From NCBI RefSeq assembly GCF_917563915.1, contig NZ_CAKJTI010000012.1:1-64000 (forward strand): DNA of 64,000 nt, given 5' to 3'. The notes beneath the pieces are model-generated. The model was not told the origin of the DNA. It saw nothing but the letters and a program-made list of their open reading frames with translations, and made no database searches. A program made the position numbers and the translations under genes. Source of the stretch: Bacillus rhizoplanae (GTDB lineage: Bacteria > Bacillota > Bacilli > Bacillales > Bacillaceae_G). Below, one piece after another: positions 46,688 through 49,031 of this stretch (within the stretch, counting starts at the first letter, position 1; every line of letters starts with the position of its first letter).

Positions 46688-48583
46688 TTACTTTTTTCTA
46701 ATTTCTTGTTGTATTTTTCTTAATGCTTTTTTAGAACCTCGTTCTATATCATGTTGTAACTTTCTCTCTTTATAACTTACAAATAACGTATTTAAATCAT
46801 AGCCTTCTGGATACAACTCTGCTGCTTTCAATTCCAGAATAACGCGCTTACAATTCACTTCAATAAACTCTTCTTTGTATAGTCCTACAATATTATTGAA
46901 ACTATCTTTTTTCTTGTATACAATGCCGTAATCATTGTGATCTAATAATTTTACTTTGTCTCCAATCTCATACTCATAAATTTCTTTCGTTTTCACCGCA
47001 TTCACTTCAGGCTTCTTTAATTTATTTTCTCTTACTAGCTCTAAGCTATAATCTTTATTTTCCATGTAACACTGTGCCCGTTGCAAAACATTTTCTCGTA
47101 AATTCATCTTCCTCGAAATCCAAAGTGCGTTGCTATCTCCGGACTCTCCAATAATTAACTTATACATAGGCTCTAATGTTTCATTATTGAATTGCATAGC
47201 CGCATTCATGAAGTCACTGTGAATTTCTGAGAATCGTTTAATTTCACCATAATGAGTCGTAGCAACTGTTATACACCCCATATGATAAAACTCTTCTAAA
47301 ATGGCAATCGCAAGTGCAGCACCTTCATTCGGTTCTGTACCACTACCAATTTCATCAAATAACAACAACGTATTATTGTTAGATATCCTCATAATTTCTG
47401 AAATATTTTTCATATGTGATGAAAATGTACTTAAAGCATTTTCAATACTTTGATTATCACCTATATCTACAAAAATGTGATCAAAAAGTGCAATTTCCGT
47501 CTCTTCATCACCATGAATATGAAACCCTGACATTGCTGCTAAAGTTAATAATCCAATTGTTTTCAAGACAATTGTTTTTCCTCCAGCATTCGGTCCCGTA
47601 ATGACTAAACTGCGATATTCTTTTCCAATCTCAAAATTTAATGGAACAATCTCACCTTGTAAAAGAGGATGTTTACATTCAACTAGTTTTATATATCCAT
47701 GACTATTTAATTTCGGTGCTATACCATCAATACTCTTACTAAATTTAGCTTTCGCGAAAATCATATCATATTGACTTATAAGCTCAATATTGATTTTTAT
47801 ATCACTAACATTCTCACGAATCATTCCTGATAAAGTCGCTAATATTTGATACTCCTCTATCACCTCTTCCGCTTTTAAACTCGCCAACTCCCCGCTTAAT
47901 TTGGAAATAACAGCAGGTTCCATAAATACTGTTGAACCTTTAGAAGAAATCTCTACAATTGTTCCTGCAACTTGATTTTTATAAGAAGCCTTAATAGGAA
48001 CAGTATATCGATCATCTTTTTTACTAATAAAGAATTCTTGAATATACTCCTTATTTGCACTACTTTTTAAAAATTTATTTAAGCGATCTCCAATCTTTTC
48101 TTCTGTTGTTTCAATATGATTTCGAATTCGCTTTAATTCTTTACTTGCAGCAGAATCAACTCGATTCCCTTTAATAGAAAAATGAATCTCTTCCTCAATA
48201 TTTTTGAACTCTGACATAGAGTATGCGTAAGAACTTAAAACAGGCGCAAAAAATGCTTTACTTAACATGAATCCCTTAATTTTTCTACATCCTCTTAAAA
48301 AATCTGATATGCTAACTAATTCTGTTGGTTCCAAAATTATTCCTTTTTCAAGCTTTCCAATGATACCTTCTATATTAGAAATTCCTATCAATGGAACGTG
48401 ACTCTCTGTATTTAAAATTGATTTTGCTTCAGTCGTTTCATTTAATCGATTCTTCACTACTTTCATATTTGAGCTTGGCTGCAATTTATCTAATAATTGT
48501 TTTCCTAATCCACTTACACAATATGACTTTACAATTTCCTTTAATTCGTTATACTGCAATTTTTCAAATGTCATGATATTCAT
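46688..48583 (-). CDS. MutS2-like ATPase lacking the Smr domain
   Basis: This 631-residue protein is collinear with MutS2: a core/lever helical part (about 1-280), then the ABC-type ATPase with Walker A VITGPNAGGKTIVLKT (near 325), DNQSIENALSTFSSHM signature, Walker B LLLFDEIGSGTEPNEGAAL and TVATTHYGEIK. After a KOW-like segment (KVKLLDHNDYGIVYKK) it ends in a basic helix. The usual C-terminal Smr nuclease of MutS2 (about 785 residues) is absent. B. subtilis MutS2 is reported to act on collided ribosomes, so a ribosome-related rather than DNA-repair role is possible. The start at 48583 follows GAGGAG. The long leader upstream carries attenuator features. Confidence 0.85.
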   Translation of the reverse strand: MNIMTFEKLQYNELKEIVKSYCVSGLGKQLLDKLQPSSNMKVVKNRLNETTEAKSILNTESHVPLIGISNIEGIIGKLEKGIILEPTELVSISDFLRGCRKIKGFMLSKAFFAPVLSSYAYSMSEFKNIEEEIHFSIKGNRVDSAASKELKRIRNHIETTEEKIGDRLNKFLKSSANKEYIQEFFISKKDDRYTVPIKASYKNQVAGTIVEISSKGSTVFMEPAVISKLSGELASLKAEEVIEEYQILATLSGMIRENVSDIKINIELISQYDMIFAKAKFSKSIDGIAPKLNSHGYIKLVECKHPLLQGEIVPLNFEIGKEYRSLVITGPNAGGKTIVLKTIGLLTLAAMSGFHIHGDEETEIALFDHIFVDIGDNQSIENALSTFSSHMKNISEIMRISNNNTLLLFDEIGSGTEPNEGAALAIAILEEFYHMGCITVATTHYGEIKRFSEIHSDFMNAAMQFNNETLEPMYKLIIGESGDSNALWISRKMNLRENVLQRAQCYMENKDYSLELVRENKLKKPEVNAVKTKEIYEYEIGDKVKLLDHNDYGIVYKKKDSFNNIVGLYKEEFIEVNCKRVILELKAAELYPEGYDLNTLFVSYKERKLQHDIERGSKKALRKIQQEIRKK

Positions 48584-48672
48584 TTCTGTTCTCCTCACTG
48601 TGATTTAATAATTGAATCATGTATGAAGATACCTAATAATAAGATTTCAATGAGTTTCTATAAAGTGAAAAT

Positions 48673-48701
48673 AAAAAAAGCTACGGGGATACCGTAGCTT
48701 T
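48673..48701 (-). terminator. Intrinsic terminator inside the MutS2-like leader
   Basis: On the minus strand AAAGCTACGG, a short loop and CCGTAGCTTT are followed by seven T, 90 nt before the start codon. No other gene ends nearby on this strand, so it should act on the leader itself. Confidence 0.8.
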
Positions 48702-48920
48702 ACATACATTTACAAGACAAGTGTAAAAACAAGTATCTATCATTAAACAAACCTTTTTCAAATAAAGGTCTAGGTCTTTAATAATAAATACCGCTACATG
48801 CTTTATAAAGTGTTGTAGGTATCTTCATAGGTAACTTAAATAAATCCATGACCGAATACAGGGTATATATTGATATAAAAAATACCCTTCATCATCAGAT
48901 TTATTTAATTAAATTTTTGC

Positions 48921-48944
48921 CTATTTAGATACTACTCCACTCAC
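48921..48944 (-). CDS. Putative leader peptide (7 aa)
   Basis: GTG-initiated MSGVVSK with a stop at 48921-48923 is preceded by the SD GAGGTG (48951-48956 on the complement) with 6-nt spacing. It lies about 50 nt after the predicted transcription start. Its position and size match leader ORFs of ribosome-mediated attenuators. Translation is not shown. Confidence 0.45.
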   Translation of the reverse strand: MSGVVSK

Positions 48945-49002
48945 AAAAAGCACCTCGTCTAATTTATTTTTTTATTCTCATTGAAATCTAAATTATGGAA
49001 TT

Positions 49003-49031
49003 ATTATACTATATGTACAAAATCAAGTAAA
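49003..49031 (-). promoter_or_regulatory. Sigma-A promoter of the MutS2-like transcript
   Basis: On the minus strand TTTACT, 17 nt, TATAAT: a perfect -10 and a fair -35 at ideal spacing. The predicted start is near 48996. Confidence 0.7.

Follow-up and report, generated by a model that had tools for sequence, protein, structure and literature searches.

How is the gene for a MutS2-like ATPase controlled at a locus where a promoter, a short upstream open reading frame (uORF) and an intrinsic terminator all lie ahead of it? We addressed this question in the window, by which we mean the whole 64,000-nucleotide stretch of Bacillus rhizoplanae DNA that was analysed. We consider it likely that the leader of this gene is a ribosome-mediated attenuator of the VmlR type, acting on both transcription and translation, and that its MutS2-like product most likely is an inducible ribosome-rescue or ribosome-splitting factor. 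The locus is composed of the following features, given from the promoter to the gene:

49003..49031, minus strand: promoter TTTACT-17-TATAAT, read in the sequence and recovered by a motif scan
48977..48989, minus strand: arm A, a few nucleotides past the likely transcription start and partner of A' (inverted-repeat search and pairing across 61 leaders)
48951..48956, minus strand: uORF Shine-Dalgarno (SD) sequence GAGGTG (sequence and alignment)
48921..48944, minus strand: uORF running from GTG to TAG, MSGVVSK and stop, 7 codons (sequence)
48920-48935, minus strand: 3' half of the uORF, from codon 4 to one base beyond the stop, predicted by folding as the partner of B
48832..48919, minus strand: nested hairpin within the uORF:B stem, the putative anti-antiterminator body (fold and alignment)
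48815..48831, minus strand: hub segment B, CCTATGAAGATACCTAC, with the uORF, the terminator 5' arm and B' as candidate partners
48702..48814, minus strand: spacer whose ends are predicted to pair with each other beside a pairing of B with the terminator 5' arm, the predicted antiterminator
48677..48701, minus strand: intrinsic terminator stem-loop AAAGCTACGG-TATCC-CCGTAGCTTT, 10 bp (terminator scan)
48673..48679, minus strand: T7 run of the terminator, its first three T inside the stem (sequence)
48642..48654, minus strand: arm A' (inverted-repeat search and pairing across 61 leaders)
48622..48635, minus strand: arm B', which can pair with B and also, locally, with the region around the main SD (inverted repeat and folding)
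48591..48596, minus strand: main-gene SD sequence GAGGAG (sequence)
46688..48583, minus strand: MutS2-like ATPase gene, 631 aa, MutS III and V domains (profile searches, alignment and tree)

The preliminary description of this locus had named the TTTACT-17-TATAAT promoter, which is present at 49031-49003 on the minus strand, and a leader of about 410 nt with an SD sequence and a GTG-initiated seven-codon frame encoding MSGVVSK, all of which the sequence contains. It had also named a 10-bp terminator with T7 90 nt before the start codon; the hairpin and the run are there, about 90 nt upstream of the main-gene ATG, but three of the T belong to the stem. The leader ends at ATG 48583 on the minus strand, which is the conserved main start (631 aa), the longest open reading frame beginning at a GTG further upstream. 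Promoter and terminator bound a terminated transcript of about 320 nt. Within the 581 nt scanned, this terminator was the only one on either strand (shuffles gave a mean of 0.1, sd 0.4), and promoter-like matches numbered nine against 3.9 (sd 2.1) in shuffles. Two perfect inverted repeats that cross each other, claimed earlier from the letters, are present: a repeat search returned a 13-nt repeat at 48989-48977 and 48654-48642 (A:A') and a 27-nt pair at 78%, inside which the sequence shows a 14-nt repeat at 48829-48816 and 48635-48622 (B:B'). In addition, GGTATC at the top of the terminator 5' arm complements GATACC in B. The window leader folded at -116.8 kcal/mol, compared with -75.6 (sd 5.0) for 100 shuffles, none of which equalled it (z -8.2).

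The order of promoter, leader frame, terminator and gene had been likened to the layout of ribosome-mediated attenuators, and it matches the logic of vmlR in B. subtilis. Passages of the vmlR report (PMC9226507) describe a Met-Ile-Asn uORF within an anti-antiterminator stem, an intrinsic terminator and an SD-sequestering hairpin, all in a 219-nt leader ahead of an ABCF gene; the residues set free are proposed there both to make up an antiterminator and to break the SD hairpin, and polymerase pausing is described. An anti-antiterminator containing the uORF, an antiterminator, a terminator and an SD hairpin are likewise predicted from sequence in the window, although here the uORF has 7 codons, the leader runs to about 410 nt and the gene is MutS2-like. 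The likeness is one of logic and not of sequence, and the A:A' clamp that crosses B:B' in the window leader has no counterpart in those passages. A second precedent comes from part of PMC6310831, where ribosome-dependent attenuation is shown for rli80, the hflXr leader of Listeria monocytogenes, with a 14-aa uORF carrying Arg-Leu-Arg, and where HflXr illustrates that a ribosome-splitter relative controlled by an attenuator can serve in antibiotic resistance. Similarly, part of PMC8632094 proposes ribosome-dependent attenuation for uORFC-6-1 before hflX, again with an Arg-Leu-Arg uORF motif. These systems resemble the present one in having an attenuator before a relative of a ribosome-splitting factor, and differ in the protein, which is HflX-like there and MutS2-like here. 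In agreement with the earlier statement that no such control was known for a MutS2 relative, we found no description of it before a MutS2 or MutS gene in the open-licence papers searched; the available passages of PMC10897456 and PMC11633108 describe none for MutS2, and MutS is unmentioned in the main text of PMC8632094.

We propose that the leader would adopt two conformations, with B as a hub contested by the uORF, the terminator 5' arm and B'. In the basal state, the 3' half of the uORF would pair with B in a long hairpin and the downstream hairpin would terminate transcription, while in transcripts that slipped through B' would pair with the main SD. Upon induction, we infer, a ribosome stalled on the seven-codon uORF would cover the 5' strand of the long hairpin and free B. 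B together with the nucleotides that follow it could then pair with the emerging 5' arm of the terminator, forming an antiterminator, and RNA polymerase would read on. After read-through, B would switch to B' and the main SD would be released. In the read-through RNA, A:A' would form a pseudoknot clamp of the leader, whose role might be to bring B near B' or to protect the 5' end.

The gene downstream had been called MutS2-like, and on its sequence the product does belong to the MutS2 superfamily, with a MutS core and an ABC ATPase carrying Walker motifs. It scored 572.7 bits against TIGR01069 (MutS2; cut-off 400), matching up to profile position 523 of 790, and aligned with residues 8-515 of B. 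subtilis MutS2 at 388 bits (PDB 7qv3, 8qpp), with Walker A (GPNAGGKT) and Walker B intact. A domain search detected Smr and its associated SH3 domain in both canonical MutS2 controls and in neither the window protein nor three proteins of a second family introduced below; nor was Smr among the families matching at least 2 of 29 relatives, among the best 25 of 35 families. The window protein gave no Pfam match to KOW, and a KOW-like stretch is weak (a profile comparison aligned 24 columns at E 0.0013, though with a probability of 18.7). The protein ends in a basic tail, RGSKKALRK, conserved in 15 aligned proteins, an alignment in which L060 is cut at the tail by the chosen coordinates. More broadly, the C-terminal tail LYPEGYDLNTLF...RKLQHDIERGSKKALRK (46691-46800, minus strand) is basic, well conserved and occupies the position of Smr in canonical MutS2. 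Compared with B. subtilis MutS2 as presented in part of PMC10897456, the window protein therefore shares the core and ATPase region, including Walker A/B, and differs in lacking Smr, in having a weak KOW-like stretch at best and in its conserved basic tail. Without Smr, it must therefore find ribosomes otherwise, if at all. The PADLOC candidates AriA and AbiLi were rejected as weak matches over the ATPase only. Among relatives, the L078 and L061 genes contain early translation stops (379 and 526 aa), possibly broken copies or record errors.

A protein search of 397 genomes from one order was bimodal: 43 genomes carried a copy at 68-77% identity (976-1100 bits), and the next match, among the matches listed, scored 534 bits at 44% identity. 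We also collected 80 relative loci at 50-77% identity from Bacillaceae, Paenibacillaceae, Enterococcus, Aerococcus, Clostridia and others; the relatives compared are from genera other than the B. cereus group. A tree of 61 proteins placed the window family (31 proteins; support 100/100), the second family (20; 100/98) and canonical MutS2 (10; 100/100) each on its own side of a branch. The Aerococcus protein L053, on a long branch, was placed among Bacillaceae (100/97), which suggests gene transfer between lineages, as judged from this sequence-based placement. The commonest neighbouring gene cluster occurred at 10 of the 80 loci, so that the neighbourhood offers no operon clue and leader and gene seem to travel as a unit. 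In the window, a helicase gene adjoins the MutS2-like gene; its best matches among 299 order-level genomes reached 71-72% identity.

A leader preceded the gene in all 43 family members of the 397-genome sample, 34 of them of class 1 and nine of class 2. Class 1 has the order A, uORF, B, terminator with GGTATC atop its 5' arm, A', B' and SD. In the rearranged class 2 (Psychrobacillus, Peribacillus, Cytobacillus, Lysinibacillus and others), uORFs begin with ATG-TCG and encode peptides such as MSGVGIN, the segment resembling B reads ATACCTACC and the terminators are different, and the class-2 leaders inspected have a second terminator-like hairpin ahead of the gene; the nine class-2 proteins form one group in the tree (100/99). 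B:B' pairing was not detected in class 2 (listed z about 0), which does not share B' with class 1, and this class would therefore have to operate via terminators alone. In L003, L004, L019, L021 and other class-2 leaders this second hairpin is large (TGCCCGCAGGAGC...GCGGGCA-T run) and lies 20-120 nt upstream of the gene, and its inner CTTTCTA/GGTAGGAG element could compete for the B-like ACCTACC.

Lack of conservation in relatives had been named as grounds for giving up the attenuator, and the uORF, B and a terminator were found to recur, in Bacillaceae and Paenibacillaceae relatives among others. R1, a class-1 RNA model of the uORF-to-B core, matched 10 of 398 class-level genomes, in all ten directly before the gene, as well as Clostridia, Aerococcus and Enterococcus loci (E 6e-10 to 2e-4). 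A dispersed repeat was rejected, since each of the 8 + 10 R1-matched genomes has one strong match, before the gene; weak extra matches (E 0.5-0.9) were not before the gene where checked (L089, L090). R1 acts chiefly as a sequence profile. RNAalifold placed B opposite the SD and start of the uORF, a structure we rejected because single-sequence ensembles disagreed with it in 30 of 30 leaders; we therefore used single-sequence ensembles and regard the structure of R1 as doubtful.

The length of the uORF was 7 codons in 56 of 62 class-1 leaders and in 43 of 50 other distinct leaders (5-9 allowed), and a promoter-like motif ended 58-69 nt ahead of uORF codon 4 in 49 of 59 class-1 leaders as a raw count. 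The uORF search in the 80 loci required Ser at codon 2, whose constancy is thus built into the search; an MS-type uORF of the expected kind came out at 74 loci, L021 and L032 were mis-picked, and none was found in L055, L058, L063 and L080. A length change in L028 shifts the uORF frame, giving the peptide MSAGSF. Both A arms were located in 61 of 65 class-1 rows and were not located in the Clostridia leaders L059, L060 and L066. Two lineages depart from this pattern. Anaeromonas L055 has, some 150 nt upstream of the gene, a 19-codon uORF ending in ...SVGVRRLNK with an 18-nt perfect complement of its end just downstream, and an SD-region hairpin; no terminator was found there, and control may perhaps be translational only. 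Enterococcus L067-L070 carry a 5-codon uORF, MSVSI, and a B segment, with B:B' z of -2.6 to -3.8; the main SD there seems to lie within a B' hairpin in the final 60 nt upstream of the gene.

We examined the predicted pairings in 65 distinct class-1 leaders against 300 shuffles, with identical leaders removed and near-copies kept (33 rows from the 80-locus set plus window and 32 from the order sample). Five leaders without a fitting uORF were dropped (L013, L018, L067, L070, L071), and L053, L056, L068, L069 and L072 were matched by R1 and missed by the B pattern. Fuzzy matching to the consensus was used to find the arms, which favours pairing, and the uORF column is out of register for L028, L046, L066 and L141, which counts against it; the margins over shuffles, computed without a relatedness correction, are not probabilities. 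A:A' was paired in 91.9% of cells across 61 leaders (shuffle maximum 86.9%), with two-sided changes at 7 pairs against a shuffle mean of 4.4, uORF:B in 85.7% (maximum 84.7%; 8 pairs against 2.6), B:B' in 91.9% across 64 leaders (maximum 91.1%; 5 against 1.3) and the terminator stem in 100% across 59 leaders (maximum 98.5%; 3 against 1.7). For example, two adjacent T-A pairs of A:A' are replaced by A-T and G-C in L135-L138, where a third pair is broken, and L048 has the B:B' variant GAAGAACCCTAC against GTAGGGTTCTTC. All four pairings are thus kept through two-sided changes at modest margins, which are small because B is nearly invariant in class 1. B paired with the uORF 3' half at 0.61-0.82 in 30 of 30 leaders with a B match, which L053 lacks. 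The terminator GG and the four loop bases complement B at 6/6 positions in 41 of 59 leaders and at 5/6 or more in 52, a level of at least 5/6 that random draws of the same letters reached in 4.3% of cases, with shared ancestry uncorrected.

Folding of the class-1 leaders with a recognised terminator (58 in the equilibrium test and 59 in the masked-fold test) bears on the proposed switch. When the RNA was ended at the terminator loop and the uORF masked, the terminator 5' arm paired with B..B+45 at a mean of 0.68, exceeding 0.3 in 59/59 leaders; with the uORF unmasked in the same shortened RNA the mean was 0.00 and 0/59 exceeded 0.3. Shuffling B with the uORF masked gave 0.44 compared with 0.66 for the real letters in 30 leaders, and the real value lay above the leader's own shuffle mean in 27 of them. 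At equilibrium, the terminator formed at 0.47-1.00 with the uORF masked (above 0.8 in 56/58), and the completed terminator was favoured in both uORF states. Folding at equilibrium thus gave no sign of antitermination, which would have to be kinetic; because the terminator is favoured in both states, read-through would depend on timing here, as with the polymerase pausing in the vmlR passages.

The translational arm was examined in the same way. B:B' scored z < -2 against shuffles in 60 of 65 class-1 leaders. The main SD was paired at 0.81, compared with 0.63 when upstream letters were shuffled (n=60), and exceeded the 90th percentile of its own shuffles in just 21 of 60 leaders. Blocking B' lowered median main SD pairing from 0.82 to 0.33 in class 1 and from 0.67 to 0.64 in 44 other leaders, and from 0.81 to 0.51 in the window. 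These results raise the alternative of translational attenuation only, in which a stalled ribosome would let B:B' open the main SD and the terminator would be a constant brake. The strength of B:B' above shuffles in class 1, the finding that masking the uORF leaves the terminator as the preferred fold, and Anaeromonas L055, with its complement to the uORF end and no terminator found, all fit this alternative. Against it stand class 2, where a terminator is present but B' was not detected, and the complementarity of the terminator GG and loop bases to B at 5/6 or more in 52 of 59 leaders, with ancestry uncorrected. We therefore consider translation-only control unlikely, and favour an attenuator that would act at both levels.

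The second Smr-less MutS2-like family is 37-45% identical to the window family. Its upstream regions (L142-L168), 27 leaders chosen non-randomly from the listed top matches, contain a 7-codon uORF, typically MxGVVLN ending in GTTCTTAACTAA, in 26 of 27 cases, followed by the downstream complement GTTAAGAAC in 24 of these and GTTAAGGAC in 2; the strict terminator pattern was satisfied in 19 of 27, and in L160 the uORF lies 722 nt upstream. R1 gave no match at E up to 1 in these 27 regions. As far as the sequences indicate, this leader is the same design in unrelated letters. The peptides MSGVVSK, MSAVGSK, MSGVGIN and MLGVVLN share small-V-(V/G)-x-(K/N)-stop with differing codons, and Arg-Leu-Arg is in none of the uORF peptides listed for class 1, class 2 or the second family. 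We then applied a motif-free test calling for an SD, a frame of 6-8 codons whose 3' end pairs at <= -10 kcal/mol, and then a terminator. Smr-less genes passed in 51/81 and 33/43 cases (overlapping sets) and the second family in 14/27, compared with 0/20 for canonical MutS2 and 0/27, 0/27, 0/27 and 0/20 for shuffled sets. The test is strict, since its misses include leaders with a plain uORF.

That three leader sequences without relation to one another all keep a short uORF, in nearly every case of 7 codons, also weighs against riboswitch-like sensing of a ligand, tRNA or protein with an incidental uORF. A long, structured and conserved leader would suit such a sensor, yet no Rfam family reached its gathering score in the window, and the sub-threshold matches of the window leader and five relatives fell well below the cut-offs; we find this explanation very unlikely. 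A T-box, riboswitch or other known RNA was rejected, nothing in the Rfam comparison lying above cut-off. More doubtful still is the idea that the terminated transcript of about 320 nt is mainly a small RNA acting elsewhere, with read-through secondary: a promoter and a terminator do delimit a structured RNA, but the ten R1 matches all lie directly before the gene, and A' and B' are past the terminator yet conserved with their upstream arms. Least probable of all is an attenuator responding to starvation for an amino acid or charged tRNA, which would likewise have a short uORF and a terminator, but for which MSGVVSK, MSGVGIN and MLGVVLN offer no single-codon run and the gene family is not biosynthetic.

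For the ribosome-mediated attenuator, the analogy with HflXr leads us to infer that the Smr-less proteins would serve in inducible ribosome rescue, and the window product is most likely an inducible rescue or splitting factor used under ribosome-targeting antibiotics or similar translation stress. A broader generalization, whose chances of being right and wrong seem to us evenly balanced, is that Smr-less MutS2-like ATPases of Firmicutes are undescribed inducible ribosome-splitting factors for tolerance or resistance, a counterpart of HflXr, each family with its own leader-peptide attenuator, and that the class-1 hub would perform antitermination and then SD release under a pseudoknot clamp. 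The finding links a widespread and apparently unstudied branch of MutS2 to a mode of control that otherwise typifies genes for antibiotic resistance and ribosome rescue. Three leader sequences that share this logic yet are unrelated make up a natural set for learning which features of a uORF cause stalling, and the attenuator predicts an inducible rescue or resistance function for these proteins that is directly testable.
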